NCBI RefSeq assembly: GCF_964355755.1
Contig: NC_092670.1
Coordinates: 16,987,201 to 17,051,200 of the forward strand
Reading direction: 5' to 3'
DNA: 64,000 nt
Source of the DNA: Antedon mediterranea
Lineage: Eukaryota > Echinodermata > Crinoidea > Comatulida > Antedonidae
Shown here: positions 34,680 through 62,589 of the stretch, piece by piece
How positions within the stretch are numbered: position 1 is the first letter of the stretch
Layout: the number at the start of each line of letters is the position of its first letter
The notes under the pieces: generated by a model
Database searches by the model: none
What the model saw: the letters and a program-made list of their open reading frames with translations, nothing else
Told to the model about the DNA's origin: nothing
Program-made: the position numbers and the translations under genes

Positions 34680-34741
34680 TAGTTGTATTGGACTGCTCAT
34701 ACTCTGGGACCCTTTAAGATCTCATAGCTATTACGCTACTA

Positions 34742-39629: not shown

Positions 39630-40551
39630 TTAAGATCTGGCCATTGCTGCGTAATTATCCCACGTTCTGTCCTGAAGAATTGGTCCAACAGAATTTGCGT
39701 CGGCAACCTCCATATACCGCTGTGACCTCTGGAACTGAAACATGCTAGGCAATGGTGTTGTCTGTGCAGTATGTGATTGGTAAAAGTTGTTATGCTGGGG
39801 ACTGTTCTGTCCGTAGTTGAAGTTAGAAGACTGATAATCAAACTGGTTTGCATTTTGGAGTGTGAAGTCATAGGCTTGTTGTTGATGTTCTGGTGAGCTC
39901 ATGTTATCGTATGATGTTGCTTGATTGGTACTAACCATCTCATGGTGTGGTGATTGATGGTTAGGACTGCTAAGATTCAGGGGTGAGCTTGATTCCTGAT
40001 TTCTGTTGATCCAGTTTTGTCCCTGCCTTGTTGAAGTGTTAGTACTTGTGAGAACTGTGTATGCTGTAGAGCTGTAAGGAGGTGGTGTAGACTTTGAGAC
40101 GGCCGTCATGCTTGAGTTCAGGTTAGCACTTGCCATTGAGTTAGCAGATGGAAGATACATTGAAAGTTCGCTGGGCTCAACAAAGTCGGCCATATGTGGT
40201 ACTGGAAAATCCATAACGTTTGATATGCGATCGTATTTTGCCCGTTTCATTGGCGGCATTTCAGGATCAATTTTTGGGGTGGTTGGTGGTGTTGGTGGTC
40301 CATGTTGCCCTGGGGCAGATGATTTTGTACCTCTGTATGGTAGTTCAATACTATCATTGGTATCTGGTACTAAGTTCTTAAAAATGCTTGGGTTGAGATG
40401 ATGATGAGATGAGTCTGGTGGACAACCATTCTTAACTGGCTTATTTCTGCGTCTTGGTTGATATTTATAATCAGGGTATTTCTTCTTGTGTTCCAATCGA
40501 AGACGATCAGCTTCGACAACAAAAGGTTTCTTTTCTTTTTCAGAAAGACTC
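39630..40551 (-). CDS. SoxE coding exon 2
   Basis: The acceptor is TTGCAG at 40557-40552. The exon resumes [20 protein letters not shown], completing the HMG box, followed by the basic [12 protein letters not shown] nuclear-localisation region and the whole C-terminal half, ending MARS before the TAA at 39632-39630. Runs such as [17 protein letters not shown] and [13 protein letters not shown] make the tail low-complexity. Confidence 0.95.
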
Positions 40552-41369
40552 CTGCAAGATAGAATAGTTGTGTATGATTAGCTAAATGTTACATTGTTTG
40601 TTTATTGTACATTGAAATAGTTTATAAAATACGGTTTTGTTGAATATACTTGTAAAAAGTAAATAGCCGATGGATTAGTAAAATAACGTTCATTGGTTAT
40701 TGACTTTCATTTTTGTGCTTCAGGTGAATCAATCTGTAGAGGTGTTACAGTGAACAATAGTTTGTCCAGTTGATTCAACATTTCAAGATTATAAATGCAG
40801 TAGAGAAAAGTTTTATTTGCATAACCTAGATGTACTCCCAGTAAAAAGACCTAACCAAAATTAAAAGTCAGTGAACTGATATATTATATTCTTGCAAAAA
40901 TAATAAATGAAAGAAACATTTACAGTTACTATTATACTAACCATTCATGGATGGTTTGCAAAAGCATCATAATGCATGTTCAAATTAAAGTAAAATTAAG
41001 AAAAGAAGAAAAATATATTTACCTCCAAAGACGTCCGAGTGTTTTACTGAGTTCAGCATTGTGTAGATTTGGATACTGATCTGCAAGACGTTTTCTGGCT
41101 GCCTGAGCCCACACCATAAATGCATTCATAGGTCGCTTAATATGTGGCTTAGATTTTCCATCTTTACCTCCGTGTTTTGTTGGCATTGTTACCAAGCTCC
41201 AATCGTAGCCTTCAAGTACCTGTGACACTGCATCCCGAATACTGTCTTTCTGTTCCCCATCTGATGACTCGTCACTTACACTACCAGGAGTGCTCGGACC
41301 ATCGCTACCAATTGACATTGAACGTTCTGTTAAACTTAGTTCCAACTCTTTCTCATCGGTTAAACTCAT
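39630..41369 (-). CDS. SoxE HMG-box transcription factor (Sox8/9/10 class)
   Basis: Join of 41369-41023 and 40551-39630 on the minus strand, 422 residues. SoxE proteins bind ACAAT-type sites in the nucleus and control neural-crest, skeletal and gonadal programmes in vertebrates; invertebrates usually have one. The sequence shows the SoxE dimerisation region (about 42-64, [17 protein letters not shown]), the HMG box (about 75-150, with [20 protein letters not shown]), a PPTPPTTPK motif at 201-209 and an SNVMDFPV to LSMYLP stretch (226-249) that corresponds to the central conserved SoxE region. The tail is Ser/Gln/Asn-rich and lacks the vertebrate C-terminal activation sequence. The single intron (40552-41022, GT-AG, phase 2) interrupts the HMG box at the position used in vertebrate SOX8/9/10; the second vertebrate intron is absent. 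The protein is slightly shorter than the human paralogues (about 446-509). LMF1 lies divergently about 16 kb away. Confidence 0.95.
41023..41369 (-). CDS. SoxE coding exon 1
   Basis: Starts at ATG 41369 and encodes residues 1-115 plus two bases of R116. It holds an acidic, Ser-rich N terminus, the dimerisation region and the first two-thirds of the HMG box, ending at [10 protein letters not shown]. The donor reads GAG then GTAAAT. The start is chosen because it is the first ATG in frame and an N terminus of about 45 residues before the dimerisation region is normal for invertebrate SoxE. Confidence 0.95.
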
Positions 41370-41482
41370 CTTGAAGAAGTGTTTATAAAGTATAGTCCAA
41401 AAAAAAAAGCTGTATGACTTAAAAGTGTCTTACTCCAGCCAACGTTTATCTAGCTTGTTAACTAATTCCAAAATATTTTACA

Positions 41483-41491
41483 CTTTATATA
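41483..41491 (-). promoter_or_regulatory. TATA box of SoxE
   Basis: TATATAAAG on the minus strand, 114 bp upstream of the SoxE ATG, would place the transcription start near 41450-41460 and give a short 5' UTR of about 90 nt. Confidence 0.6.
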
Positions 41492-41536
41492 GGAAATAGT
41501 ACTACGGCCCTCCCCTATTCTGATATCACTGTTTTG

Positions 41537-41541
41537 ATTGG
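41537..41541 (-). promoter_or_regulatory. CCAAT box of SoxE
   Basis: CCAAT within CCAACCAATCAAAAC on the minus strand, about 45 bp upstream of the TATA box, which is the usual spacing for NF-Y sites in TATA promoters. Confidence 0.5.
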
Positions 41542-41545
41542 TTGG

Positions 41546-42379
41546 AATGTGTCACTTCTCGTTGTCGGTGACTCAACAAGACTGTACAACTTCAAAAGAG
41601 AGTTGCCCTGGGGAATGCTAGCGCGAAACTAGACTTAAGCCTATGTATACTTAATTGGTTTAGGTAATAATTAATAATGTACAAAATATATAAAGAAAAG
41701 TTAAAGTGGCTAAAAACATATACAAATGTACAGTTTTTAACCCCAATAGTTTAGAATGGAAAAGTAAACTAAACTGATTTCAGATTGATTCCTACCGATG
41801 AGTCATCTGTCTGACTCGTTTACGTGACGTCAGAAGTAGTTGTATAGTGGTGCATTTGCGTCTTTTTGTTTTCAACTCTGATACAGTAAATAAGAAATGA
41901 TATTTATCCAGAGTGTGTAGGTTTGTCTCAAACATTACACAGCAGTTTATAACACTGGCTTCTCTTCTATATAATTGTTGTTTACTTGTTTGTTGTTTTG
42001 CCAAATGTATGATTAAGAGCCTAATACAGGTTATTACTATATGATGACGTTGTTTTGGGCTAATTAATACGAGGATGGTGTGGGGTTGTTACTGGAATAC
42101 AGGTTGTTTGCTAACTTACTGTTATGTAACTGTCAAAAGTAACTAGGAATTCGAGCATTTAAAAGTAAAACCAGACATTTCCTTGTGATCTGTGCAAAGG
42201 GTCCGGGTTAAACATTGGCAGTAAGCAACATTTTAGGTAGGCCTATAGTATGAATAGTGTGAATGTACGACCATGCCGAACTAGAAACTTCAAAGCTTTG
42301 AAATTCTGATAAATTATAAGTTTGGTATATAGTGTAAGGAAGAACTGTGGGGCTCATATGTTATGTTTAACTTAAAGGG
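41546..42379. other. SoxE upstream region, no gene
   Basis: No coding sequence. The 70-codon minus frame (41792-42004) has no recognised domain. A TAGGCCTA palindrome lies at 42238. Confidence 0.45.
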
Positions 42380-42539
42380 GTGTGGATGCGTATTAGCCCT
42401 ACCTTGTTGCTTGGTGTTTTTCAAATTGGCATCCATACGAGTCTCGTCAGCCGCACCTTTTGGGCATCAGTTGTAATACGCCACACCTCGTGTTTCAACT
42501 ACGTTACGTGGTTTTTGGGGCTGGGCATAAAATCCACAC
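42380..42539. mobile_element. Possible MITE with GTGTGGAT ends
   Basis: GTGTGGATGCGTATTAGCCC at the left and GGGCATAAAATCCACAC at the right are partly complementary: 8 bp perfect, then a GCCC match after a gap. The interior is GC-richer than its surroundings and non-coding. Only one copy is present, so the call is tentative. Confidence 0.4.
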
Positions 42540-45157
42540 GGTCAGATAGTCCTAATCCTATAAACAGTGCACTATTTTCTCGACTATTTTTTAATTTATT
42601 AATTAAATTCCTTAAAATATATTTAAAATAATTTATAACTGCCATGCAAAAGTCCTGATTGCTTTCCAAATAAATTGATGTTGCTTTAAATTTATGCTTA
42701 ATTACATACTGTAGGCCACATTTGTTGATAGATTCATAGGCTTAAGAAACGGTCTGACGATTGATAGAGAACGGTATAAAGACGGTTAAATAACGATAAC
42801 GTGACTACTTCGTTGAATCCAGGTTTAGCGGTCATTTTAATGTCGTAAATGTAAAAATCTGTGATGGTCACACTCACAGAGGTCAACATTTATGGATTGA
42901 AAACTACTTTTTTCGATTGTAGCAAAGAATGGATGGGTAAACCGTGTTAATGTTGTAAGTTCAAACTAACATATTCTGTTTGTTCTCAATGTATTAATTA
43001 ACTTTTCATTAACCATCATGGAGTTATAAAATTTCTAAAAACTCCATGCATTGACGCAGTGTTTGCTGTGTAGGCCTACAACTGCCCTGACAAACTTCAT
43101 TTTTATTGTAATGAAATTCAATACGTCGATTTTATTTATAATACGGATTTAAAGTTTACTGTGGCAAAAGGCCCATGTCAACTTTCAAGCCTTTTTTTAG
43201 GCCTTAAAAGTTCAAATGTCACACTGGGCATCGTGCCAATTCTTTTGGACTTTTAGAAAAAAATAACGCCCTCTATAACATGTGGGATAAAGCCAAAGAT
43301 CTTTGATAACACCTATTAAAAAATGTTAATATCAATATCACTATTGTAAAAATGATTGCCAAAATACTATATAATTACTGTTGCATCCTTTTCTATGACT
43401 ACGATAGATACGACAATATTTACCACGCTATTTCGAATTCCAAATTCGAGTGTGGTAGGCCTACTATAGGCATATTTTACATTCGTATCGTATCTATAAT
43501 ATGATTTGGTGACATTACAACATTTTTATGATCGCAAGATTAAATCTATTGTCTTTACTACTTTATGAAACCATGCAAATGGATAAGCATTTATACCGAT
43601 AATATATTGTCAAATTTACTTGAAATATTTTAATATAAATATTAATCAAAATAGGCCTATAGAATTAGAGAAGAAATGAAATGTTTATAAATGTAATAAA
43701 ATTAATTAATTCTTAGACGTATGTAATTTAGCCCGCGTATGTTAACATTAGGTCGTTGGAGTTTAGTTAACATTCGCCACGAAATGGAATTATCCGGTTG
43801 TAAAATGTTACAATTTGTCACGTTTTGGCGGTATTTTTGTTTATATTCCGAGTAGTCGGTTTCTCTCGTTCTCAGGCTATTCTGATGAAATATGGATAAT
43901 TTCATTACCCCTTTGAGGGTACATTGATTCAATAGATGTTTGATTTACTCATTGAACTGCTCTTTATATCAACGTGTTTGACACTAACTATACCCATAAG
44001 GGTAGTGGAAGGGTCCTAAGCGTCTGTTCTTTTCGGTGTACGTCGGACCTTCAGGATGACAGAGGCTGTTGCGGTTGAGTTGTTGATACGGGTGGTCTAA
44101 AAATGTATGGGTGGTTTAAAATTAAATACAAAAACTCATTTTTTTTATGCCATTATATTTATTATGACCTTTACTATTCAATTGTTTTGTAATATTGATT
44201 GTGGTATACAGTTTTGTTTAAAGACTGTATATTAGATACAGTAGCGAAATTATTGCTTTATGATAATGCTTTTTATGGTGAATTAGGTATGTCGGAACAT
44301 CTATCATTTAGGCATACGGTTAATTAACATAAAATCACTTTACTATTTAACACGTCATTAGTTTCTCATTAATCTGTCTTTATCACGTGACTACTTCAAT
44401 CAGACCGCCGGGTCTTAATCCGATATAAATCGTTCTGACAAGAGATAAGTATAATCGCTATTTAAATGTTCTCAACATGAAGCCATGATACTTTTAAATC
44501 CGGTAATAAAATAATTACACTATTGTCACATGCTGTGTTCACTATTTCACCAATCTATTTTATTTATCATGTTTCAAAAGTATTACTTTTGTTAATGTTA
44601 TTTTTTTTATATCTTGTACTGTACATAATTTAGTTTAAGTTTCCTTGTACTGTAAATAGGCCTATCATTTTATCTCTAACTTCTATTTTATTTTATTTAC
44701 TCTTCATTCAAGAAGTGTGCCACTGTCTAAAAGTGTAGCTTCCAAATAAATTATTATTATTATATTGATATGGCCATTGTATCCGGATCGGTGCGTGTTT
44801 CGCTCTAATCCCACTTAACGTATTATTAGGATACGTGCTGATATAATTACGTAATACGTGGTGGTCATCTGTACTTTTTATGGCGGTAGCTTTAAGGTCC
44901 AGTCGTGGTCGGTACCCGGGTCGGTATTAATCACACCGAGTTTCCTCCATGATCGCACAATATTGTGAGTGAGTGAGTGAGTGAGTGGCATACAGCTTTA
45001 CTGTACATCTATCGACACATCTGAAATATTCATAGTTAGTTAATGAGTGTGATCCATCCAGCAATTGCTGATCATTAGGGATCCTTAGAGGTTCACAAGA
45101 CAAACGTAATACACAATTTTTTAGATGCTCTACATTAACAAAGTCTTATTACAAGTC
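42540..45157. other. Intergenic between SoxE and LMF1, no gene
   Basis: TAGGCCTA palindromes are unusually dense here (43071, 43456, 43652, 44657). Short simple repeats occur at 44751-44764 (ATT) and 44966-44988 (GAGT). No exon-like sequence is recognised. Confidence 0.45.
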
Positions 45158-45276
45158 TTTGGGAGTGGAGTAATTTTGTCCTTGGAAAAAATCCTGACAT
45201 GTGTCAGGACTTGAACCCAGGACCCTGGAGTGGTAGCCAAGCATCATAACCACCAAGTCACAACTCCACTCCAAAT
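45158..45276 (-). mobile_element. tRNA-like sequence inside an inverted repeat
   Basis: On the minus strand, an A-box-like TGACTTGGTGGT (45260-45249) and a good B box GGGTTCAAGTCC (45218-45207) are spaced as in a tRNA or tRNA-derived SINE head. The unit is bounded by the inverted pair TTTGGGAGTGGAGT (45158-45171) and ACTCCACTCCAAA (45264-45276). It does not fold as a proper tRNA: the acceptor arm does not close next to the T arm. Most likely a SINE or tRNA-derived element. Confidence 0.55.
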
Positions 45277-45857
45277 AAGAAAGATTAGAATGCAAACGAC
45301 GTGTTATATCTATTTTAATTTACAACTTTGTCATAAAAAAAACCGGTAAAACGGTAAAAAAATCTTTTACTGGCCTCGTCGTCAAATATATTATTCAAAA
45401 TATAATTATATATATTATATTTTAACTATAACCTGATCCAAATCATTGTGCAAATTGTATGCCTAATATTATTAACATTTGTAGAAAAATGGAATTAACA
45501 TAAATATCATTTCCATGTAAATCACCAACTTGTTCATGGATATCGATATTGTAACCCAATGTTTCCTGATTCCGTAGAATTGGGTTTGCAAAATCCAACG
45601 AAACCTAAATGTACTACTGTACTGGAACGTGTCATATTATTATTAACCGGACAATTAAAAATCCTCGTACCAAGACGAGGGTCATGCAACTGTGGTTTAT
45701 GTTTGTGTCGCGATCATCGAAATCCGTAATTATGATGTCATCAATAATAGGTGCATTGTTTTTTTTTTCGATCGTTAAAAGGGTATTTTTCAAGATTATG
45801 TAATTTATCATAATGTTTTATTTATAAATTATAGTGCGCAAATTCCAACAATAGAAT

Positions 45858-46022
45858 TAAAGCTCTGTCTATACACTATCAAACTAGTTTGACAAAAAAG
45901 TGTGATGTGGTCAAATGGTAGTGATATGCTTAAATATGGTAGTGATATGACATCATCATGTCCATATACGGGAACATCTCATTTTTCTGACACATTAAGT
46001 TTGAAAGTGTAGACAGAGCTTT
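45858..46022. mobile_element. CTACACTATCAAACT MITE family, full-length copy
   Basis: Ends TAAAGCTCTGTCTA and TAGACAGAGCTTTA are perfect inverted repeats. The interior carries ACTATCAAACTAGTTTGAC, two GGTAGTGATATG words and a GACATCATCATGTCCATAT stretch shared with 59441-59600 and 50571-50690. Non-coding, about 165 bp. Confidence 0.85.
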
Positions 46023-46765
46023 ACAATCAATATTCAGCTTAATTACAATTTGACGAATAAAATATTTTACAGTTTTGATCTTTTGAATTTAAAATAAACA
46101 CAGGACGATAGGTAGACAGAATACAATTTATAAATACGTTCAAATAGTTTCAATACCTGATATTCTAGTAAAACTCTCCACTTTGAGCTAAGTATTGGCT
46201 GTAATACTAATTTTATGTAAATTTCTTGCTGATTGTTTAGTTTGAGTGTGTAGTATAGACCTATTTTTGTGACTAAGTTGACCGTGTAAATCTAGTAAAA
46301 CGAGGTCACTTTTTTTTACGAACCGATACATTTAGTACCATTGACACTTTTATAATGTTTTCTCCAAATAAACACACCTTTTCAAATTGACATTTTATTC
46401 GGTGTTTAGTATTTTGATGACAGACCCGAGCGTTTTCACATGTGTTTTAAACGCGTCAGCAAGTTTTGAACCAAAATAAATGACGTATATTCACAGTCGT
46501 ATTTCGTAACAATCTATATTCTTTATTACTAATTAGTGACTGTTTCCTGTTTTTAATTTACGAGAATCAAACCACGGAATGTAACTAGTTGCCAAATGGG
46601 AAAGAATAGTTTTGATAGCATTAAACTGGAAGTATTATAAACATTATAAATAGCACTCATATTCAGCGGAAGTGATTCTGTATTTTCCAGTGTTGATTTT
46701 TGTTTACTGCAGTAATCATGTTCTATACTATTTTATTTCCTCATTTCTGAAATATACTATGTTTT

Positions 46766-46804
46766 ATTCTTGTTGATGATCAAATAAAGATCGAAACGTC
46801 GAAT
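46766..46804 (+). ncRNA. Hammerhead-ribozyme-like remnant
   Basis: Reads ATTC, TTGATGA, a short GATC/GATC region, GAAAC, GTC, then GAAT complementary to the opening ATTC. The GAAAC-GTC part and stem I match the minimal hammerheads of Penelope-like elements, but the first core base is T instead of C and stem II is shortened. Inactive remnant, if it is one. Confidence 0.35.
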
Positions 46805-47544
46805 CATGGCTTCGCTCGTTTTTTTATGCTTAAAGGAAATCATGACTATGACAAATGATACTCGGAGGTCAAACTTTGTAAATAAGCGATATACAAATTA
46901 CAATTTGATATGCCAGGGTTTTGCCGTGGACCCATTCCTAATTTATAGGTCCACGGTCATTTAAATCCGCACTACAGTAATTCCTCCATTCAATTCAATG
47001 ATTAGCAAAAGTTATTGCCGATATCTCAGCATTTGTTTATTTTAGAACACCCGCAATAGTTTCTAGTTGTCGCCAATTGAGTGGGCCGGAAATAGCACCT
47101 TTATATCCCTCATTGACCATCAAAGTGTCTCCGCACCGGAAACGCTTTTGCAGCCTTTGAAGTTGAGCTGACCACCGTAGGCCTAGCAATGCATCTCTTT
47201 CGTTTCCCCACCCATAAATGCATAATAGGCGTAATTTCAACCGATGTACAAAGTATGTCTGACAATCTAGGCCTACGCTTTCGGTTTTAGAGAGACGGTG
47301 GATCAATGCTTTTTTAATGTTTCAAGTGACGTCATCAACACAAAGGTATTAAGTTTAAATAATACGTGATATCTCGGAGTTCGACCAGATTTTCCTATTT
47401 GAATTAAAATAACCGATTTCTCACTTGCAAAATTGAATAGACCTTAACTACCTTACACCGACGCATGGAAAACGAAAGAAAACAAAGTTTGTTTAATAAT
47501 GAAAATGTTTTTAAAATTGAGTGAGTGGGTTTGTTCCAATTTTG
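46805..47544. other. Intergenic, one unexplained open frame
   Basis: The minus frame 47037-47306 (89 codons) lies in GC-richer DNA but has no recognisable domain, splice context or neighbour support, so it is not called a gene. Confidence 0.4.
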
Positions 47545-47925
47545 AATTAAGGGGGTGTAAAATTAAAAATATGATCTACAGAAAAACATGAAAAATAAGA
47601 TGTTACAATTACAGTGTGTAGTTTTAATAAATTTATGGCATTCAATTTTGCCAAAAAAAAAAAGATTTCGCTTATAAAAAAGACAAAATATACAATTACA
47701 ATTACATTTAACAAAACAAAACATTGACTTTCAGTAGGCCTAATAGACTTCCATTTGACTATCTTTTAATTAATAATTATTTTATATTAGGCCTGCCATG
47801 TAAATATTTTTTCTCCATCCAATTTGTGATCAAAGTGAATAAAATAACTTATGTGAAACTAAAATGGCTTATTCAAGAATTCTTTTTAAAAATTATTTTT
47901 TTCAGAGGGACAATATATCCTTTAA
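47545..47925. mobile_element. MITE with TTAA end, GTATTGTCCCCC family, decayed copy
   Basis: The right end GAGGGACAATATATCC followed by TTTAA matches the family. Inside are AACATGAAAAATAA, AAAAGACAAAATA and TATGTGAAACTAAAATGG, corresponding to the same blocks in the copies at 19485 and 55617. The left inverted repeat is not recognisable. Confidence 0.6.
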
Positions 47926-50570
47926 AAAGTAAGTAAATGGAAGCGTTGGAGGAAATATAGGTGAATATCGTGAAGGTTCGATTCACTCCGCCGATTCCGT
48001 CAATGTTTACTTCCGATCATAGAAACCGTGACACACACACACTTTATTATTCGCCCACCTGTTACGCCGGAACAAAATGTTTCTGTAACCAGTAAAGGAT
48101 ACAGAAATTGAAATATTAATAGTATAATCATGGAGAAATAATTATTATTACTCTATGGTATAATGTTGAATTGAATAAATGAATACCTGAATAAATTGTG
48201 TAAAGTTCTAACCGTGCCATATCATTAATAATAGATACCGGCCGGTGTTTTTGTTCAAATACCTACATTGCATTTGGGTACTGCGGTACCGTACCCTGGG
48301 ACATAAACGTTTTGATTAAAAATTAGCGACTCGATTTATTGTGTAATGGGTTGCCGTAAATATGTATAAATGCTTGGTGATATTGGCTTTTTCCTTCATC
48401 AAACTTCAGACTAACTTATACCGGTCTAAAACGCTTTGAAGACGGTGTGAAATCTAGAGGTAAACCTAACCCTATCGACCCAAGAAATCTCGCGAGACTC
48501 TACGATTAATGGTGCTATGGATAGGCCGTCACACAGCAATTGTTGCGTTGTCTTTCACCGCCTGCCCTTCGTAAATCGTCCGGTCTCTCTTGGGGATGTT
48601 TCAAATCTTTTGCAGTAATTTGTTGCAATCGGCGTCATGGTTGGATGAAAGTCGGTCGTTTTAACAGGTAAACTTTGCGGAAAGGTGACACTGAATGGTT
48701 AGACGAAATGTCATATAATGTTTAATGTGAGTACCGACTCGGCATCGGAAGTTTACAGTCATACAAGCTATGCACATTAAGTATCAATAATGTAGCAACT
48801 ATAATTACCCATGTTAATAAATCAAACCAACTTTCTCACAACAGCATTTTCATACCGGTATCATTAAGTTTTTGTTTGATATTAATGTGAAGAGATTTGT
48901 GCTAAGAGATGTAAGGTGGAGGGAAGGGGTTCGATTGGAGTTGTGCAGCGGGTACAATGCTGTGAGCCATTTTTATGATGCAGGAGTGTGTCATTGTTAA
49001 CCTATGACGACTTCGATAAACTATTTTGTGGGATGTGTTTGTGTTGTTATTCTCATCGATTTTACACAGGTGAAGTCGAGTTTAAGTATTTTACCTGTAT
49101 ACAATTTGTCGGGATAAACACCAAAACAACCCATGCTTATTATTAGTTTCTTTATATCAATTATACTTTTGAACAAAGATGGCTAAACATGACATTATAC
49201 CGTTCTTAATATCCTGTTCATTTATTTTGTGTTCTATTATATTTGTAACAATAAATGTTTTCGCTATAGAATAGGGTTAAACATTGTTATTCTCCAGTCT
49301 GACGTTTAAATTGTGAGAGCTATTGTGACGAGTTATTGATAAGATTGTCTACTTAATTTTTACTGCTTTCTTGACAAAAAGGCTTTGACAAGCGGTATAG
49401 TAGTTATTTATGAAATCATTTCCATTCTTGAGTCGCCTTAAGGTATTCTTTGCAGACCGCTTTCAGGAGGATTCATTTATTTTAGACGGGTCCATTTAGA
49501 CGAGTGTCAATCGTTAGTATTCCCGCTTGTTTGTCTTCAGTCTGTTGTTTGTTACAACTTACATTACATGAATGTAGGCTTTTTTTTTTAAAGTAGGACT
49601 GTAGGCCTGTTTTTCTTTTTGGTTAATGTTGATCCAATTGAAAGTACTAAAAATAGTACTTATTTACTATTGGATCAACGAAAAAGTAAAAATTCTCTTC
49701 TATAATATTATGAAAAAAAAATGAAATTATTTCAAGATTTTAGGCATGTAGGTCTATAGTTTGTGTTTACTAGGCCTACGACACGGAAAGCATGTGTATA
49801 ATCGTCAGATAGTCGATCATTAGTTGTTGTACATTTCAATTTTAATTTAATACATAATAGCAAAATACATAAAAGAACATTGTGACAGTAATAATAATAA
49901 TAGGCCTACAATATAAACAAATAAAATCATTACCATACGGTAATAAGTCGACCCACTGCACCAATGCCAGATATTCTTAGGCCTATTTTATTTTACCAGG
50001 TATCAGCATTTTCTAAAAATAGATATTAGGCCTTCTGACCTAATTTCTATAATTTTTAAATAAATTGTGTTTTGTTTGTAAGTAGGCCAAATAGGCAGTT
50101 CAGTGATCAAGCAGGCATTGGCATTATATCGAAAAGATCTGCTGAGCACTAGTGTGCCTTTAGGATAGGCACTGAGTGTAGGAATAACTGCATCTAAAAC
50201 TAATAATGTTAATTGAAAGTGAAGTGCGTACAATCAAATTGCAGGCAGGATACCTATGTGGGAGGCAGGTTCAATTGTTAAACCCTGATTATAATCCCTG
50301 TATTTTGACAAGTTAAGTTGTGTCGAAAATTAGAAGCAGAAGTAACAATCAAATCAGAAAATCGGATACAAATTAAATAGCAGTTTAATTCATTCGATCC
50401 GTCTTGATTGGAATGGGTTATGATTAATAATACGACCAGGGAGGCAATACGAATGTTATTTTTGTGAGATGATCACCTTTTACTATTACATCTGGCTACC
50501 AGATGCTACTTCTGCAAAAAAGGTTTTCTAAAGTTTACCATGTGTATAGTTGTAGACCATGTTTCATTTA
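47926..50570. other. Intergenic, candidate regulatory words only
   Basis: Holds a TCTCGCGAGA palindrome at 48488-48497, a 52-nt hairpin at 49628-49679 (arms GTTGATCCAAT and AGTACT) and TAGGCCTA palindromes at 49771, 49901 and 49978. No coding exon recognised. Confidence 0.45.
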
Positions 50571-52244: not shown

Positions 52245-52358
52245 AAGCTTGGTTCCCGACGCCAAGGAGACGGCCCCAGAACAGCCGTTTATGATTGGTC
52301 AACTCACTTTGATTGCGCCTACGTCGTTGCGATGCGTCCTATAGTGGGAACCAAGCTG
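52245..52358. mobile_element. 114-bp MITE with AGCTTGGTTCCC ends
   Basis: AGCTTGGTTCCCGAC at the left and GTGGGAACCAAGCT at the right form 12-bp perfect inverted repeats. The interior is GC-richer (GCCAAGGAGACGGCCCCAG) and non-coding. Single copy in the window; superfamily not assigned. Confidence 0.65.
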
Positions 52359-53459
52359 TATTCATTGAAAAACACTGTCTGTCTGTAACATCGAAACTAT
52401 AGATCCAACCCACGTATGTATAGCCGCTTCGTTTTACGGCCCACTCTCAAGGAAAAATACCAGATTAAATTGGTTATTTTTGGAGAAAAACAATTTAATG
52501 GCTCTTCCTCTATTAACAATTATTAGTATGGGTGTATGCACAAAACGACCGCCTTTTATGGTAATAAAAATATTGCACCTATTTATATTTTTACATTGTA
52601 ACAATCGAAAGACGAGAGAACCCTGGAAAATCTAAAAATTATGTTGCTAAACGTATGGACTGATGTGTTGATGAGAGAGTGGGTGGTGTGGGTGACGTTC
52701 ATATGTTATGTTGGTATATACTTAAGCATAAACAAAGTTAATTTGACTCGCATTTATTTGAAAAACACAACAATAGGGCCTATAGAAAAGGACATTTCAA
52801 AATATAGTTCATAATCACACCCGACATTAGTTATATCTGACAAACATCTCACCCTCCTACCTGCGTGTCCCAGACAACATACCATTGTTAAATTAAATGT
52901 CTAAACCATACGTTATTATAAGTCCCGGGCAGATGGGAAAGGATGCCAAAAAAAGAAGAAAGATATGTGACCCAGAAGCGACGACGGATAAACTTGTTCA
53001 GTGTCTGTCTAGACGCGTATTACCACCTGCTTTATAAGATTTTTCTTTGCACCCTCCCGTGGACGTGATACTTTACACTGCCTGGATAAATAGATTTACT
53101 AAACTGTATGTCTGTATTCCTCACTATAGGCTTATTGTACCGTCTACAGGTAACGCTAAACCGTAATTAATGACAATTCTTTTACCGAATAATTTATATC
53201 GCACTTCATTTTACTGATTGTTTTAATATAAACATATACAATGCTTGTACAGACACTAAAAGTTTGTTAGGCCAAAATAAAAGAGGGCGCTCTGTAATAG
53301 ATGAAAGACTATTGTTTCATTAAATTGTTTTATTGTCTTAATTCCACAAAGATATCGTGGATATAATGTTCCATTACTAATTCTTCCATGATTTTCATAG
53401 ACTTAAATTTGCCTAATAGTGTACATCCAGATTATTGTTGTGTATGTGTGAATCGGTCA
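52359..53459. other. Intergenic, no gene seen
   Basis: AT-rich sequence with no supportable features. Confidence 0.5.
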
Positions 53460-53768
53460 GTACTACCGGGTGTGTGACGCTGTCTGAGTTGGCCTTTAGA
53501 CTACTGATCGTGAGATCGCGGTTCGAATCCAACTCTGCCACATTGCGTATATCCTTAAGCAAGATACTTTACTTACAGTTGCCTCTCTCCACCCAGGTGT
53601 ATAAATGGGTACCCGGTTAGATCAAGACACAACTTTGCACTGATTACTAGCTGCATTATGGGAGTTATGTTTCCATACGTGTTTGATGCAAAAATGACCG
53701 GGGTAAATGTTCAGCGCTTAGAGGTTTCACAACATTAGGCGCTATATAAATCCAGGATATTATTATTA
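53460..53768 (+). mobile_element. tRNA-derived SINE, copy 2
   Basis: The tRNA-like head has GTCTGAGTTGGCC (A box) and GGTTCGAATCC (B box). The body, with TTGCCTCTCTCCACCCAGGT, GGTTAGATCAAGACACAAC and TTTGCACTGATTACTAG, ends GGCGCTATATAAATCCAGG followed by ATT repeats. The same family as 30737-31013, in opposite orientation; the two copies are clearly diverged, so neither is very young. Confidence 0.9.
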
Positions 53769-55279
53769 CCGACCGAACATTCTGATGAATGTAACTAATG
53801 TAATGGCGTTATGTAACATAGGCTAGCAGAAATGTTATAACCTCACATTGTCAGATATTGTCGTATAACACTGAAAATGTAATACCCGTGATAGGTAATT
53901 GTTCATATATCCCAAACATCAGGGATCCACCAAAGCGCCCGACTTAACGAATTCTTTGACGTCGAGACATAAGTCGTGTAAATTAACTATGAAAATAGAA
54001 CAATTTTGAACTGTACCGTATGCATTCCATGTTGGCGCAAGTTATACAATGTCTAGACTCTTCTTAAAACAAATTGTACTTTAACTCATTCAACTAAACC
54101 CAGACGAATTTAATTGTAAAGTTGTATTGTTATTAAATATATTTTACTCTGGGAATGCGAGTGATAAAGCTATTTTAATTTAGACATGGACCTATATCTC
54201 GAGTCTCTCACAGTTCCTGAATTCTTGCTTTATGTTGTGTATATGTTAATACTCAAAAACACGGCAATTTGTGTAGCCCCTATCGAATATACACCGATAC
54301 CTCTAATCGAAATAGTTCTGCGTTGGTTCCACCCATGATTGAACGCAAGAAGTACGCACAACGCATGAGTTTGACCAATCATCCGACCTTAGTTAACGAA
54401 CGTGAGAATGGTCAGCCTTGGACGACAAATTAAGATTTTAGAAATGTCATTAAAAAAAAACACAATAACGAAAACTGGCGATTAAATTCATCTAGCAGTG
54501 TATAAGATTTAAGAAGTTTTGTTTTGTAAAGATATTATTTCTTATGACATACCAAGAGGAATAAGACGTTGGTTTTGCCGCAGGTATAGGCTGCTATACA
54601 TCATTGTGTATGGCTTAACGTCAATGCTCTAGCCTTAACCTTGGTGTTTTCTAATGGATAAGAGCTATATGTCAATGCTGTAGTACGCAAAGAAAGTACG
54701 AGAAACCAATGACGTCCTTCACAATTATTGTTTTCTAATGTCGTGAAAAATGTAAGACTACAAGTTTTAATCGGATTGGTTTGCAATGATCTTAATCTGA
54801 CAGAACGTACACCTGAGTATTAACATTTCTGAGAAAATCTGATAGGAAATTAGAAATAAACACACACCAATAAAATGTACCGTAGTTAAATGTCCTCTAC
54901 GAAACCCAGTGACAAAATATATTAGGGAAGTGGTACGGTGTATTTCCGATTTCATCGATATCGATTTATGTAGCTGATTTTACATCCGATATCATTTTCC
55001 ATGAACCTCAAAACTCATATCCTTCGATAAGTGACGAGGAAAACAGTCAAATGATATTTAAATTGTAAAAATGCATCAATGGTTAAAAGAAGCCACATAA
55101 TGTAAAGGATAGGTCTAAGTCGAATGCACAATACAATCTATAAAAAAAACACCACATTATTATAGAGCATTCGGCAGAAATCGTCGAAAACTCATTATGA
55201 TCAATACATCAGTACCGATAATACTAAATTATCATTTTCCATACAATAAAGGATCAAACAAGAAATACAATGATGTAGT
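53769..55279. other. Intergenic, no gene seen
   Basis: AT-rich sequence with no supportable features. Confidence 0.5.
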
Positions 55280-55346
55280 TATTATCTATATAATATTTAT
55301 TGAAACTACACTTTTACAACGGTGGCACACGTTTATATACACGGTG
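55280..55346. repeat. Dispersed repeat, near copy at 38338-38400
   Basis: GAAACTACACTTTTACAACG, GTGGCACACGTTTATA and ACACGGTGAG match GAAACTACACTTTTACAATG, GTGGCACACGTTCATA and ACACGGTATGAG at 38338-38400, in the same orientation. The two copies bracket the SoxE gene. Confidence 0.7.
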
Positions 55347-55616
55347 AGTTCTTATAAAATAGACAACAAACAGATACAAAAATAATAATCGATCGCTGTC
55401 GGTCACTGAGATATTCAAATTACAAAAATTAAGCAGTTAATAACTACGAATAATAATTGGCAAAATAGTAATACTGAAGAACTGAAAATAATAATAAATA
55501 GGCCTAAAAATAATTGAAAACAACAACTGAGAAGAATACACAAAACATGTACGTATATATTACCTGTCAACAATCGTTGTTCGCGTATATTATTAGTTAT
55601 CACTATTTGGCGGAAC

Positions 55617-55940
55617 GTATTGTCCCCTGAAAACATGAAAAATGAAGATTAATAAAATCAGACTTTGAATAGGTCAAATAGTTTAACAAAATGAATCAAT
55701 TAATTAACAAACGTAAAACCCGAAAAATGATATATTCTTTAATAAAATGACAAAAGAAACGGTTAAATTCAACCAAAAACCAGCCAATTTGACTATTTTT
55801 TGCTTTAAATTACAGTTTTCAGGTAAAATATTGTTTTTCGATCCAATTTTTGGTAAAAGTGATTAACTATTATGTGACATTAAAATGGTATATTCAACAA
55901 CAACAAATATTTTTTTCAGGGGGACAATACAGTACATCTT
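55617..55940. mobile_element. MITE, GTATTGTCCCCC family, copy 3
   Basis: GTATTGTCCCC at the left and GGGGGACAATAC at the right, with CAGACTTTGAATAGG, TTTGCTTTAAATTACAG and CTATTATGTGACATTAAAAT inside, matching the element at 19485-19837. The outermost bases are eroded. Confidence 0.75.
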
Positions 55941-57323
55941 TCAGCAGTTTTATTTAACATGATTCCCATAGATAATTTATCGCACAATTCTAATCACCGT
56001 GGGCATCTGTTTCTACCAGCCTTTAGGCTTTTCTTTAATCGTGATGGTTTTGATTTTGAGACATGAATTACGTCATACCCAGGTTACTTTACTATATATC
56101 AATCCTGGCCTGTCGGTCAGGACCCAGCACCTCACCAAACACCCGTTGTGATACCGCTAGTCGCTCCCACTACCAAATTACCTGCGCGGCTTGGATGCTA
56201 TAATAAATATTACTGCCGAGGCAAATTTGCCGAGTTAATGGATGTAAAACTCATCATTGTTGTTCCCCTAGACATAACTTGAACTTGATAATGTCTGGGT
56301 TTTATGATCATCCCGACCCTGCTCCGTCTTCCCTGCAGCGTTCTCTACGTGGTGGTACCTGGAAAACCCATCCAATGCAATTGTAATGTTTGTAAAAGTC
56401 AAATAACAAATGTCTGTGTTTGTAATTTTTATTTTGTTGAAGATCAATTAGGTGTAATTTGTAACCATGCTTTGTCTGCTGGGCTTTGTTAAAAACGAAT
56501 AAGGTGGAAACTGTTCCTAAAAATCTTAGGCCTATATGGAATAAGTAATGTATGTTTTAAATAAATATGAATGATAAATAAGTAATAAGTTTAACAACAC
56601 TGAATACGTTTTTCATTTCATCTCATTACTCGAATTCAAAACAATAGGCCTAACATTAAAAACAGTACAGGAATGAATTCAGGGTAGCAAACTAGTAACC
56701 ATATATCAAACTTTTTTTCCATTTAAGGGGATTGCTGACAACATCTCCTTCTTCTTCTCCTCTGTGTGATGTGCCACTATGGTGATCTACCAGAACTCAA
56801 TGATTTTTTGTGTAACAAATTATTCTTGATTCTGTGTCAGAGGTTTAATTTTTACTAGACTCGGAAGTAGTCTTAGGTCTTCATTCAGGACGCTTGACCA
56901 CCTATTCTGGTCAACAAACTCTCAATGGTCCATATAATATCACCACCTATTGTAATTTTATAACTACTTGGTTTTTATTACTATTAATTATCATAATGAA
57001 AGCGATCGGCTACTGTTTGTGAGTAATCTTGTGCCGAATACGTCGTCGGCCGAACGGAACCGACAACGAAGACGCCAATTCCTTGGCGTATTATGTATCG
57101 TGTCTGAATCGAATTAAAATTTAATATTTTATTGACTTTATTATAAAGTTTCTAATAGATATTCCCTTTACGACATATATTATCCAAAATACGACAACTT
57201 TATAACCTTGTTTTTTGTTTTGTAAATTTAAGTTAACCACAAAATTCTTTTTTTTTCTTTCACCGTATTTTTATATTTTTCTTTGAAGATATTACTGAGT
57301 ACTGCTCAGAGGGGGCGCTAGAC
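55941..57323. other. LMF1 upstream region, no other gene
   Basis: No coding exon recognised. The 200 bp before the LMF1 start shift to higher GC. TAGGCCTA palindromes lie at 56527 and 56645. Confidence 0.45.
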
Positions 57324-57431
57324 ATGTTTCTTAAATTTGTTTCTGTTTATTTGTTGTCGAGTCGGGAGTCTCCCCGGCGGCCGGCCTAGCTGCTAGCTCT
57401 CTCTCTCTCTCCCAGCTTCGGTGACCAAAAT
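57324..57431 (+). promoter_or_regulatory. LMF1 leader with uORF and CT tract
   Basis: If transcription starts upstream of 57324, the leader contains an ATG at 57324 opening a 21-codon frame that stops at 57389, before the main ATG. A CT run (about 57397-57412) follows. The 5' end is not defined, so whether the uORF is in the mRNA is unknown. Confidence 0.35.
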
Positions 57432-57636
57432 ATGGAGGGTACGGCGTCCGTGCGACAACGGCCGAGGCCTAGCCACAAAGTTCGATCTGAAAACAACTCG
57501 GAGAATAAAGAAAAACATGATAAAAAAGAAAATAAATTCACAAAGACTATATCTAATAATACAAACATTGAATTGAAGTCTGGTACTTATTGGTTAACCC
57601 GCATCGTATTTCTCCGTTTCCAGGCCTTCATTTATT
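57432..57636 (+). CDS. LMF1 exon 1
   Basis: ATG in good context (AAAATATGG), then a charged, hydrophilic N terminus (residues 1-50, Lys/Asn/Glu-rich, cytosolic in the family) and the start of the first membrane span, GTYWLTRIVFLRFQAFIY. Donor GTAAGT at 57637, phase 1. Confidence 0.93.
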
Positions 57637-60600
57637 GTAAGTTATTATGTATCACACAGGAATCAATTGACTTTTCTCCCCGTAACTAATAATTTGTGAG
57701 AGGAAAGGAAGTGATCATTAGGTCTATATGATTGGATTATTTTTATAAGAAAACTGAAAGAAACAAACTATAATAAATTAGTACTTATTTTTCAGGTGGT
57801 TGGTGGGAGAAGGGGTGGCAGCAGGGGTTAGGATAGGAGGAGGGAAGTAGTTGGGGTGGGGGTTTGTTTGTGTACTACTACTACTAGGCCTAGACTCAGA
57901 GGATACAGTAAAGTTGGCAGTTAATTCTTTCCATTCAGAAATCTTTGCTATGAACTGAGATACATAACATTTTAGTTGGTTCTTTATTTACTCACTTACT
58001 TTTGCAGTTGTTGCATACCTAGTTGCATTGCATCAAAACAAAGAACTCATCGGCAGTAAGGGACTCTTACCGGCAAATTTATACTTAAAGCGCATCAATG
58101 ATCATGTGAACGGAAACATCTGGCAGGGGTTGAACTTTGGTCCAACATTACTATGGTTTACAGACCTGAAGGAAGTTGACTACTGGTTGGATGCCATCGC
58201 ATACAGTGGACTGATGTTGTCTGGTTTTGTCATCATCACTGGATGTTGTAATATGATCATTATGGCTGCCTTATGGATCCTTTACCATTCACTGGTAAAT
58301 GTTGGACAACGATGGTAAGTAAGTTTATATGCTGGTTTTTTACACCATTATATTTCTTTTACAGCAATTGACATTTGAATGGACTCTTTACTTACATTAT
58401 TTTTGTTTCCTTTTTTTTTGTTTAGGTATGGTTTTGGTAAGTTTACATTCTATTACAAACTAAATTATTTAACAATGATCGATTAGCTTACTAATGTGGA
58501 AAGCATTGTCATTGAGTACTGTAATTCTTTTTTTTTTAGGATGGGAGTCCCAGCTGTTGGAGTGTGGATTTCTTGCAATATTTATGTGTCCATTGTTCAC
58601 GCTAAAGCAGGTTCCGAGAAACACCCCTACACCTGTAGTAACTTTGTTTGGATTTCGTTGGCTTATATTTCGCATTATGATTGGAGCTGTAAGTTTTGTT
58701 TGTTTGTTTGTTTATTGATTTTTCACAAATAATAATATATAAAATATTTCTTTATAGATTTTTAAGTATAAATTAGTAAGTACTAATATTAAATTTTACT
58801 TGAAATGCTGTACAATTTTTGAAACATCTAAAATATTTAATATTTTGAATTTTCTAAAACCATTTTCTTGACACAAAAATGCACGTTTGTTGCAAATTGC
58901 ACTACAGATTTTTGAAATATATTTCAGACAGTTCTTTGATAAACTGTTAACATTTGGTTGAAGGAGTTGACATATTTTTTTTACTCTGTAGGGACTAATC
59001 AAGATTCGTGGTGATCAGTGCTGGAGGGATCTTACTTGTATGAATTACCATTATGAAGTAAGATTACTCATATAATGTGAACCCACCTCAAATTTATAAT
59101 AGGAAGGTTTGATTTGCGGTGTGCAAAACCATTGTACCCATGCATGGACATGGGATGTGCTTCCACACTCCTCCTCATGGCAGATTCTAGGTCCAGACAA
59201 CCAGACCAGACCAATAGACATAGGTCCTACAGTAGGTTGTCGCAGAACAAAAGCTTCCTAACAATTTTAGAGGATTATTATTGTGACTTTTAAGAAACCA
59301 TATTTTCTGAAAACTGTATTCGAAACCAGAATTGTTACAGTTCAAAAAGTTTTAAATTCTTTTCTTCTATTCATGCAAAATACATATACATCTGACTCTT
59401 CCAAAAAAACAAACAAATTGGTCCAAATCATGGTTCTTCAGTGTCTGTCTACACTATCAAACTAGTTTGACAAAAACAGTGTGATTTGCCCAAATATGGT
59501 AGTGATATGCTTAAATATGGTAGTGATATGACATCATGTCCATATATGGGCACATCACATTTTTTGTCACATAAAGTTTGATAGTGTAGACAGAGCTTTA
59601 GGAAAGTTGACTGAAAAAAAATCATTTTGATCAAATATGCAGTTTAGTAGCATCAATGATGAAAATAATAGCAAAAAGTAATGTTGAAAATACTTGTTTT
59701 TGAAGTTGAAGTTTTCTATGTTGCCTGTGTGATTTATCACTCATTTTTGTAAAAAAATATGACTTTTATACTTAGTTAAATAATCTAGCATTGAAATGTG
59801 GTGAAGCATATAGCATTTCTACATTATTTATGATAGCAACTTTCATAGAGAAAGTAGGTCTTAGTGTTGTTGCAATGTTGATGTGATTATATTACCGCTA
59901 TTCTGTCATTGCCGTTTACTAAAGATAAAAACTAAATATTGATCGTGTTTTTGTAGACAAAGTTTATATGAAATCATAGTATTAGTAGAATGTTGGCAGA
60001 TACATTTTAAAATACAATCTTTGACTTGAAAGAATAAATCAGATTATCTCATCTCGTCATAAAATACCAGTTAGGTTTGTCAGTTTTACAAATGTTTGTA
60101 TCTAAATTTTTTGTGTTTTTTATAGACACAACCAGTTCCTAATCCCATTAGCTACTATCTGCATCAATGCCCAACTTGGATGCATCAATTTGAAACAGCA
60201 TCAAATCATTTTATTGAACTAGTTGTTCCCTGGTTGCTAATTATTCCTTGGAAACCAACACTGATGATAGGTGGCACTATTCAAATTTTATTTCAGGTAT
60301 GTGCTATAGTCTTAAGAGATTCTAAACATTTAAAGCAATTAAAATTAAAATACAATGAACGTTTATGAGTTAATGCGGAGGATATTCTTATGAGTTGATT
60401 AAAGAGAAGAAGTAGAGCTTAGTTGATGGGACCTTCAGATTGGATGTAAAGCCATTGGTCCTGTGTAGTGCATATAGTGCATGTTAAAGAAATTGATACA
60501 CTTTTTGAAAAGAGTAAGGGATTGTCTCTCGGTGTGCTGATCTGGTGGGCACTGGCTGCCATGTGTCTGTGGAGTGCCTCATCCGAATTTCCGCACTTGA

Positions 60601-62589
60601 GGACCAGAATAAACACCTTTGCCTTTATACCTTTTTAACTGTCCGTCTGTCTGCCTTTCAACAAATGAAAATATTCAAATTAAATGAATAGACCAAATTA
60701 TCTTGTTCTGAAAATAAACTTTTATTAAATTAATCAGCCGTTTTCTACCTTGATATGAATGTCAAAGGATATGCCATGCATTTAAATTTTGCAATCAGAA
60801 ATTGATACACTTTCACTTTTCAGTATATATATATATATCATTATTGCATAAAAAGTTAATATGTTATGTTATATAAAGGTATTAATCCAAAAAAGAAAAT
60901 GGAAATAAACACAATTTCATTCTCTTCACAGATAGTTTTGATAACAAGTGGCAATCTGAGCTTTCTTAATTGGTTGACTATATTGCCGTGTATATGCTTC
61001 TTTGATGATACATTCTTCGCCAAGTTTTTTGCCAATAATCCAAAGGGAGCCAAAGCATACGTGAAGCAAATACAGACAGAATCAAATGAAAGGCATGTTC
61101 ATCAAGGTATTATATGTTGTAGTTTGTGCTGGTAGCCCTTTTACTGTTTGCAGTCTTTTTTCCCCATTGCTCACATTAATTGGACACTGAACTTGTCTGG
61201 CTGCGACAAATACCAACTATGTACATATTCCCCATGGCGCGGTGTCTCTTAAAGAGAAACTGTTTTGTTAAGATACATACATCCGTTGCTTTCTTTTGCT
61301 TTGGTTTATCAAGGTAAAATTAAAATGTTAGAGTTTGTGCTGGTAGCCTTTTTACTGTTTGCAGTCTTTTTTCCCCATTGCTCACATTCATTGTGTTGTT
61401 AGACCAAGGTAATCTAACAACAGGACACTGAACTCGGGTTGCCAAGATAGGAACTCGTAAAAGTCCTTTAATCTTATGTCTGGGTGCGACAAATACCAAC
61501 AGTACTGTACTGTATATATTCTCCATGGCGGTGTCTGTTGAAGGGGTGTGGAACTGATCGTGTCGCAGCCACAGATAAACCCTTTGATCTCCGTAGCTCA
61601 GCATCATGTTGTTAGATTGCTTTGGTTAGAGTTAAACTGTCTAGTTAAGATACATACATTTGTTATCTGCACCTTTTGCTTTTGAAGAATAATAAAAGAA
61701 TGCTTTAAGATAATTAACCCTAGCCTTAGTGGAGGTCATGTAATTGTGTCCACCTGAGAAATAATTTTTCGTTGAGCATTCAATAGAAATACATTTGGGT
61801 AGCGCAAACCACCGGACTGAAGCAGTTTCCTGAAAAAAATAGTTTGTAGTATTAGTTAAGCATTAACACCATTTAAGATATCTCATTACTAAAAGCATAT
61901 GTTTGTTGCATTTTTTTTATACTTGTATTCAAAGAATTTTTAGTCGTTTATTAAATTTATCAAGGTTGTCCGTGTGAATGGCCATTTAATACTTAACAAA
62001 TATGGTGAATAGAACAGACAACCATCTTGTAAGATTTGATTTGAATAATTTGAGGAATAGTTTGAATAACTAGAAGGATTTCAAAGAAATTCATGAGACC
62101 GACATTTGAGACCATTAATATTGTTTCTGAATAGTAGAGATAACTTTGAAAAATTGAAAGTTAAAATAAAAAATAAAATTGTTTATATGAAAAAACCAAG
62201 TAAAATTTTACAGTGTATATATAAGAACTTACAAGCATGTTGTTGCCCAGTATCATAGCAAATTCTGTAAAACAGTGTCACACATCTATCACATGTTGTA
62301 CCTCTCTAATGGAATGTTGATGATTACAGTAGTTTAGGCCTATGGTAAGACATGTGATGGTGTATCACACAATTTGCCAATGATACTGTACAAATTAAAG
62401 ATACTGTTACCAATAATTGTTTTCTATCTTTACAGGTCAATACATTCGCAGCGTGCTACACATTGCCCTCGCTGCCTTAATCACTTACCTCAGTATACCG
62501 GTTGTTAAGAACCTGTTATCTCAGAGGCAAGCTATGAATACGTCTTTTGACCCACTGCGTATTGTCAACACTTATGGAGCTTTTGGAAG
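57432..62589 (+). CDS. Lipase maturation factor 1, 5' part of gene
   Basis: Eight coding exons: 57432-57636, 58008-58314, 58426-58436, 58540-58688, 58992-59057, 60126-60296, 60932-61106 and 62436-62589. All introns are GT-AG and the frame is continuous over 412 codons plus 2 bases. LMF1 is a multi-spanning ER membrane protein needed for folding and dimerisation of lipoprotein, hepatic and endothelial lipases. The protein matches vertebrate LMF1 almost throughout: TYWLTRIVFL, ALHQNKELIG, WESQLLECGFL, FGFRWLIFRIM, GLIKIRGDQCWRDLTCM, NHFIELVVPW, SGNLSFLNWLT and RIVNTYGAFG. Several hydrophobic spans are visible (about 55-77, 132-160, 180-195, 270-300 and 366-386). Human LMF1 has 567 residues, so roughly the last third is missing; its exons lie beyond 62589, none recognised before 64000. 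Confidence 0.95.
58008..58314 (+). CDS. LMF1 exon 2
   Basis: Acceptor TTTTGCAG. Encodes residues 69-170 and most of W171: the end of span 1, the conserved ALHQNKELIGSKGLLP loop and a span around SGFVIITGCCNMIIMAALW. Donor GTAAGT at 58315, phase 2. Confidence 0.95.
58426..58436 (+). CDS. LMF1 exon 3, 11-nt micro-exon
   Basis: GTATGGTTTTG, between acceptor TTTAG and donor GTAAGT, supplies the last base of W171, then Y172, G173, F174 and the first base of G175. Joining exons 2, 3 and 4 gives VGQRWYGFGWESQLLE, which agrees with the conserved family sequence; skipping it would shift the frame. Flanking introns are 111 and 103 nt. Confidence 0.9.
58540..58688 (+). CDS. LMF1 exon 4
   Basis: The acceptor follows a T-tract (TTTTTTTAG). 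Encodes residues 175-224 with WESQLLECGFLAIFM, the CPLFTLKQVPRNTPT loop and FGFRWLIFRIMIGA. Donor GTAAGT, phase 0. A TTTG microsatellite starts just inside the next intron. Confidence 0.95.
58992..59057 (+). CDS. LMF1 exon 5
   Basis: A 66-nt exon, residues 225-246, GLIKIRGDQCWRDLTCMNYH then YE, which is almost invariant in the LMF family (DUF1222 core). Phase 0 at both ends. Confidence 0.95.
59441..59600. mobile_element. CTACACTATCAAACT MITE in LMF1 intron 5
   Basis: Left end TGTCTGTCTACACTATC, right end GATAGTGTAGACAGAGC. The interior is nearly identical to 45858-46022, including the doubled GGTAGTGATATG. The best-preserved copies differ little, so the family was active fairly recently. No effect on splicing is expected, as it lies far from both splice sites. 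Confidence 0.85.
60126..60296 (+). CDS. LMF1 exon 6
   Basis: 57 codons, residues 247-303: TQPVPNPISYYLHQCPTWMH, then the NHFIELVVPWLLIIPW membrane span and MIGGTIQILFQ. Acceptor TTTTATAG, donor GTATGT, phase 0. Confidence 0.95.
60932..61106 (+). CDS. LMF1 exon 7
   Basis: Residues 304-361 and one base of G362: IVLITSGNLSFLNWLTILP, then a more variable loop (FFDDTFFAKFFANNPKG) and HVHQ. Acceptor CTTCACAG, donor GTATTA at 61107, phase 1. The last bases of the exon and its donor are partly copied at about 61307-61316 by an intronic duplication. Confidence 0.93.
61118..61690. repeat. Direct duplication in LMF1 intron 7
   Basis: AGTTTGTGCTGGTAGCC, TTTACTGTTTGCAGTC and TTTTTTCCCCATTGCTCACA occur at 61121-61180 and again at 61332-61389, offset 211 bp. 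Both copies are followed by GGACACTGAACT, TGCGACAAATACCAAC and AAGATACATACAT words. The second copy is about 160 bp longer, with additional sequence around TTGTTAGACCAAGG and TAATCTAACAAC. Confidence 0.85.
62436..62589 (+). CDS. LMF1 exon 8
   Basis: Residues 362-412 plus two bases: QYIRSVLHIALAALITYLS (a membrane span), IPVVKNLLSQRQAMNTSFDP and LRIVNTYGAFG. Acceptor TTTACAG; donor AAG then GTGAAC, phase 2. The trailing AG needs a pyrimidine in the next exon to give the Ser expected after GAFG. This is the last exon visible. Confidence 0.94.

Follow-up and report, generated by a model that had tools for sequence, protein, structure and literature searches.

Which of the vertebrate SoxE copies, SOX8, SOX9, or SOX10, still stands in the neighborhood that the gene had before it was duplicated? 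The question is raised by a 64,000-nucleotide stretch of the genome of the crinoid Antedon mediterranea (NC_092670.1, positions 16,987,201 to 17,051,200; here called the window), in which a SoxE gene lies head to head with LMF1 and for which a preliminary description had proposed SOX8 as the copy that kept the ancestral surroundings. We read 264 kb of the contig (C1) around the window, with positions given in window coordinates and negative values lying to the left of the window. Within about 220 kb, the order is TMC, TMC, GTPBP1, a gap of about 71 kb, SoxE, LMF1, four Kir genes, FAM234, and SUN1/2, and from TMC to SUN1/2 every gene lies on the minus strand, with LMF1 as the sole exception. 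Set against the human map, these 220 kb appear to combine what surrounds SOX8, SOX9, and SOX10. The reading that we favor overall, at a probability of roughly 0.8, is that the block represents the ancestral SoxE neighborhood and predates both rounds of vertebrate genome duplication.

SoxE, LMF1, and the interval between them

The preliminary description had SoxE running leftward from 41369 and LMF1 rightward from 57432; both genes are real and divergent, with their start codons 16,062 bases apart. The coding sequence of SoxE (41369 to 39630, minus strand) extends from ATG to TAA in two exons, encodes 422 amino acids, and contains a GT-AG intron that interrupts the HMG box. Its product scores 48.1 bits against Sox_N (Pfam cut-off 23.1) and likewise exceeds the cut-off for HMG_box. 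In the PDB, two SOX9 chains come out on top (142.6 and 133.8 bits) and SOX17 is the next family (103.6 bits), in a listing of 57 sequences for the HMG box that holds no SOX8 or SOX10 chain. Both hallmarks of a SoxE protein are thus present, namely an HMG box nearest to SOX9 and the N-terminal dimerization domain (Sox_N). Across the assembly (354 Mb, of which C1 makes up 11.7%; search matches fell on contigs C1 to C11 of 18, and family match counts are lower bounds), the Sox_N profile has a single match, the SoxE locus itself. Exon 1 matches eight places, with the N-terminal domain covered at the SoxE locus alone, and this is therefore an assembly with one SoxE found.

LMF1 lies on the plus strand and starts with the ATG at 57432. 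Its 11 exons, joined at GT-AG junctions, encode 590 amino acids and reach to about 66266, so that position 62589 merely marks the end of the last exon within the window. The product carries both the LMF1 (227.2 bits) and the LMF1_C (180.2 bits) domains of Pfam, and a 300-amino acid part of it found no relative in the PDB. Two LMF loci were found in the genome, the second at C7:16770600-16781560. Compared with stretches of the human proteins that were not taken from a database, the C1 protein is identical to LMF1 at 61/109 positions of the C-terminal and 80/109 positions of the middle stretch and to LMF2 at 36/99, whereas the C7 piece is identical to LMF2 at 26/35 positions and to LMF1 at 16/38 (middle stretch 30/74). 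Judged by these identities, the C1 gene is assigned to LMF1, and the C7 locus is taken as its probable LMF2-like paralog.

No gene was detected between the two, as had been described. In a codon-usage scan of 41400-57430, the best segment reached only 12.8, versus 76.8 and 40.3 for the two exons of SoxE, codons from which had gone into the training set, and the longest frame with a positive segment has 98 codons. None of 14 open reading frames (ORFs) from the interval (14 tested of the 41 scoring at least 6) matched Pfam at an E value of 0.05, and neither Rfam (at gathering scores) nor ARAGORN found anything in the window. These scans could have missed a long non-coding RNA or a gene made of short exons, the latter because several short exons of LMF1 also score below the listing threshold of the codon scan. 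Dispersed repeats lie at about 45037-45269, 45855-46023, 52276-52353, 53468-53782, and 55617-55861 and cover at least about 1.0 kb in total, which is a lower bound since scoring covered 39 of 14,962 candidates. The repeat at 45855-46023 matches elsewhere in the genome, and a copy was seen by eye at about 59440-59600 in LMF1 intron 5.

On the other side of SoxE, the 3′ flank is gene poor for about 71 kb, out to GTPBP1 at about -31.9 kb. Eight flank ORFs were compared with Pfam, comprising six of the 45 that score at least 8, a 176-amino acid part of a reverse-transcriptase frame (also among the 45), and a 173-amino acid frame cut to 120 amino acids; the sole match was reverse transcriptase. Frames of this element (RVT_1) extend from -11437 to -9344.

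The wider block on the contig

The Kir genes lie past LMF1, on the 5′ side of SoxE and on the same strand as SoxE, and at their closest, SoxE and Kir are about 42 kb apart. A PF01007 search of the assembly (seven candidates, all scored) found at least four matches, all four in one array on C1 (17.072-17.110 Mb). For the first, second, and fourth gene, Kir2 comes out on top in the PDB (420.6, 340.7, and 344.8 bits), with Kir2.1 or Kir2.2 best in all three genes tested of the four and margins over Kir3.2 of 45, 17, and 11 bits; the third gene is an IRK by Pfam. MADF/Myb-like and Harbinger-like frames, identified by eye, separate the third and fourth genes. The FAM234 profile found one match in the genome, in the SoxE block. 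SUN1/2 was sought because SUN2 is a neighbor of GTPBP1 in human, and it turned up 95 kb from SoxE; the SUN search gave four exon matches at two places, one in the block and the other on C4. TMC gave eight matches, six at the pair near GTPBP1 and two at one C1 place 2.6 Mb off. The features are collected in Table 1.

Table 1. Features of the SoxE block and its surroundings, in window coordinates
Feature	Position	Strand	Basis
SLC10-like frames	~-90 to -80 kb		one piece tested, Pfam SBF
Two TMC loci	~-74.8 to -74.2 and -60.7 to -58.9 kb	-	TMC model genome search
GTPBP1	~-31.9 to -41.6 kb	-	877 bits to solved GTP-binding protein 1
Gene-poor 3′ flank of SoxE, inner part	1..39629	.	codon scans, Pfam on 8 flank ORFs
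SoxE exon 2 (HMG box end, C-terminal part, stop)	39630..40551	-	GT-AG junction, Pfam HMG_box
SoxE exon 1 (start codon, Sox_N, HMG box start)	41023..41369	-	Pfam Sox_N 48.1 bits
SoxE-LMF1 head-to-head interval	41370..57431	.	16,062 bases, no gene detected
LMF1 exon 1	57432..57636	+	gene model, ATG at 57432
LMF1 exon 2	58008..58314	+	gene model
LMF1 exon 3, 11-base micro-exon	58426..58436	+	GT-AG both sides, frame kept
LMF1 exon 4	58540..58688	+	gene model and profile match
LMF1 exon 5	58992..59057	+	gene model and profile match
LMF1 exon 6	60126..60296	+	gene model and profile match
LMF1 exon 7	60932..61106	+	gene model and profile match
LMF1 exon 8, last within window	62436..62589	+	gene model
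LMF1 exons 9-11, past window end	64842-65025, 65445-65557, 66029-66266	+	gene model
Four Kir genes	83816-85402, 100985-102424, 105013-106149, 121944-123143	-	PF01007
FAM234	~128.4-134.2 kb	-	Pfam 3.9e-29
SUN1/2	~136.8-143.2 kb	-	PDB SUN1 242.3, SUN2 217.9 bits

SUN, Josephin, KDELR, and Chibby were picked in advance as families that lie near SOX10 on the human map, and all four have a match on C1, with SUN alone near SoxE. There are thus two layers, an old chromosome-scale linkage and a far tighter core around SoxE. From the size of C1, the chance that a random point on it falls within 120 kb of SoxE is about 0.006.

Some further observations concern the surrounding sequence. Beyond SUN1/2, C2H2 zinc-finger-like frames and GalNAc-transferase-like frames were seen by eye at 150770-157600 and 167900-171800. 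The window contains 28 copies of TAGGCCTA, a sequence frequent in echinoderms, compared with an expectation of 0.6 given its base composition, and palindrome-like ATACCGTATA repeats were noted by eye at 63140-64000, near the right end of the window.

Probable descent of the block and possible reasons for its retention

For the human side, we take SOX8 and LMF1 to stand head to head at 16p13.3 and FAM234A to lie about 0.7 Mb from SOX8; KCNJ4, GTPBP1, and SUN2 are presumably found within about 0.8 Mb of SOX10, and KCNJ2 and KCNJ4 presumably lie 5′ of SOX9 and SOX10, respectively, on the same strand. Published work supports part of this picture. Sox8 and Lmf1 are neighbors in vertebrates, a single 85-kb interval containing the 5′ regions of both SOX8 and LMF1 (PMC6542586), and this part of the preliminary description stands. 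KCNJ2 and KCNJ16 make up a domain adjoining SOX9 (PMC9482574), and Kcnj2 appears with Sox9 in a further paper (PMC8290416). The SSTR2/3/5 2R paralogy group includes KCNJ2/4/12/14 and SOX8/9/10 and has been placed in ancestral chordate linkage group 15 (PMC3560075), and teleost sox9b is linked to tmc6a (PMC4873142).

Shared descent of the block with the vertebrate SoxE neighborhoods is very probable and, with the losses divided among the copies, offers the most economical explanation. The whole block would have been duplicated with the genome, after which each SoxE copy would have retained a different subset: SOX8 would have kept LMF1 and, at a distance, FAM234A; SOX9 would have kept KCNJ2 and KCNJ16; and SOX10 would have kept KCNJ4, GTPBP1, and SUN2. 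The proposal that SOX8 keeps the ancestral neighborhood is then half right, because SOX8 keeps LMF1 while Kir stays with SOX9 (PMC9482574) and, presumably, with SOX10; GTPBP1 and SUN1/2, which belong to the SoxE block and in human presumably to the SOX10 side, likewise do not fit SOX8 as sole keeper. We would only tentatively go further and take as the starting state a compact block of Kir, LMF1, and SoxE in which LMF1 formed the hinge. The SOX9-KCNJ2 arrangement, with Sox and Kir genes in adjoining regulatory domains, might then predate vertebrates, the SOX9 desert might have arisen through loss of LMF1 and growth of the interval, and SOX8 might be the copy from which Kir was lost and in which the hinge gene remained.

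Several points weigh against the inherited-block reading. The human positions of KCNJ4, GTPBP1, SUN2, and FAM234A, like the KCNJ2 and KCNJ4 strands, are assumed here rather than cited, and our literature search for SOX10-side linkage found no supporting paper. KDELR, Josephin, and Chibby are on C1 but 7 to 16 Mb from SoxE, with Josephin also on C10, and since these three 22q13.1 families lie so far away on the same contig, the pattern is explained in part by chromosome-scale linkage. The reading of the flanks is what brought up Kir, GTPBP1, FAM234, and TMC, which hence were not predictions, and for the families of the block the genome-wide counts cover Sox_N, LMF, Kir, FAM234, SUN, and TMC. 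The TMC loci come solely from the genome search with the TMC model, three TMC-like frames picked by eye having given no Pfam match, and the comparison as a whole draws on one invertebrate genome. Furthermore, some teleost sox9a genes are near Lmf1 (PMC4873142), which a simple scheme with LMF1 kept by SOX8 leaves unexplained; the link may be left over from this block or stem from a rearrangement that has nothing to do with it.

If only the chromosome were shared, SoxE, LMF1, and Kir would have drawn close independently here and in vertebrates. The known paralogy group of SOX8/9/10 and KCNJ2/4/12/14 (PMC3560075) is what such an account would build on, but it would need several independent approaches, each with a chance of about 0.006 even within C1, and it would have to reproduce the same divergent SoxE-LMF1 orientation and the same-strand 5′ position of Kir (on the presumed human strands); we consider it improbable. 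That the genes themselves were misidentified, with the Sox gene not a SoxE or the LMF gene an LMF2, is extremely improbable. Exon by exon, the Pfam LMF1 model does score best at the C7 locus (111.9 bits versus 71.2 bits), but the C1 protein is closer to the human LMF1 stretches used here and the C7 protein to the LMF2 stretch, and for the Sox gene SOX9 is best by 39 bits and Sox_N is present. Very improbable, too, is a true bidirectional promoter pair, in which SoxE and LMF1 would be adjacent because they are co-transcribed from one promoter. The head-to-head arrangement fits it, but at the level of the start codons the genes are 16,062 bases apart where a bidirectional promoter implies starts within about 1 kb, and a shared core promoter is unlikely at such a distance. 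In the mouse, moreover, the partner of Sox8 at a bidirectional promoter is Cerox1, not Lmf1, and the human Cerox1 transcript is among the LMF1 non-coding transcripts (PMC6542586).

Shared descent does not say why the linkage lasted. One possible reason, to which we give somewhat less than even odds, is a regulatory trap, in which LMF1 and Kir would be bystanders without a role in SoxE regulation, SoxE control elements would be spread over the flanks and perhaps sit in bystander introns, and breaks would have been disfavored by selection until the presence of duplicates eased this constraint. With such elements distributed over LMF1 and farther out, it would be understandable that the core stayed tight while other families drifted. 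Three observations argue against such a trap. When Sox sites were counted in six stretches, each compared with 40 dinucleotide shuffles, the SoxE-LMF1 interval held neither strict nor loose dimer sites (the shuffles average 0.2 loose ones), and its 10 single sites, against a mean of 8.65, show no enrichment. The sole clear excess of single sites is found outside the block, in the outer right stretch (144000-173990; 29 versus a mean of 18.8, reached by none of 40 shuffles). In vertebrates, sox8, the copy that keeps LMF1, has 6 conserved non-coding elements, versus 37 at sox9 (sox10 has 3; PMC5524304). The preliminary description had also put forward the 16-kb interval as a prime place for ancient SoxE enhancers; the Sox-site counts lend this suggestion no support, and the vertebrate element counts point rather the other way. 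The 3′ flank of SoxE contains two loose dimer sites (mean 1.43) and 51 single sites (mean 46.8; 8/40 shuffles reach 51), and with its 71 kb it is as good a candidate site for control elements as the 16-kb interval. Neutral inertia, graded about as likely as the trap, accepts shared descent and disputes the reason alone: the block would be homologous with nothing holding it together, in a lineage that rearranges its chromosomes slowly. The lack of Sox-site enrichment in the interval and the linkage on C1 far past the block (KDELR, Josephin, Chibby, and the two TMC matches 2.6 Mb away) are consistent with it; against it, the SoxE set lies within about 220 kb while KDELR, Josephin, and Chibby are 7 to 16 Mb off.

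Significance and comparison with known systems

The duplication of SoxE figures centrally in thinking about the neural crest, and the SOX9-KCNJ2 locus is a textbook case of gene separation by chromatin domains. A genome with one SoxE in an undivided block suggests the gene order before duplication and which copy lost what, and its SoxE-LMF1-Kir stretch allows invertebrate contacts and enhancers to be set against those of SOX8, SOX9, and SOX10. That ancient microsynteny exists is already known. In the main-text literature searched, we found no paper reporting the TMC-GTPBP1-SoxE-LMF1-Kir-FAM234-SUN1/2 block and no published invertebrate gene order around SoxE. The main text, as searched, of PMC6292497, PMC7269912, and PMC8851819 is without SoxE/Sox9 or Sox, KCNJ, and LMF1, and the excerpts of PMC9894652, PMC5062122, and PMC10525774 hold no SoxE gene order.

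One close parallel is the vertebrate SOX8-LMF1 pair, whose members are also neighbors and share a single interval between their 5′ regions (PMC6542586); in Antedon mediterranea, by contrast, Kir genes follow LMF1, and SoxE is unduplicated. The SSTR2/3/5 2R paralogon likewise places SoxE and Kir2 on one ancestral chromosome (PMC3560075), although the linkage there is chromosome scale and here it is a block of about 220 kb with one SoxE. As in genomic regulatory blocks and ancient microsyntenic pairs, a developmental transcription factor would have stood beside unrelated genes for a long time. Genomic regulatory blocks are defined by the conserved non-coding elements of their target gene spread over bystanders, whereas this block is known from gene linkage, the linkage of developmental regulator and putative bystander being seen in one genome here, with a partly presumed vertebrate counterpart. 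Finally, the SOX9-KCNJ2/KCNJ16 locus, with its two neighboring chromatin domains, shares the presence of Kir2-type genes near SoxE and, presumably, their same-strand 5′ position; it differs in that LMF1 stands in between here and that Kir lies about 42 kb from SoxE, compared with what we take to be about 2 Mb in human.

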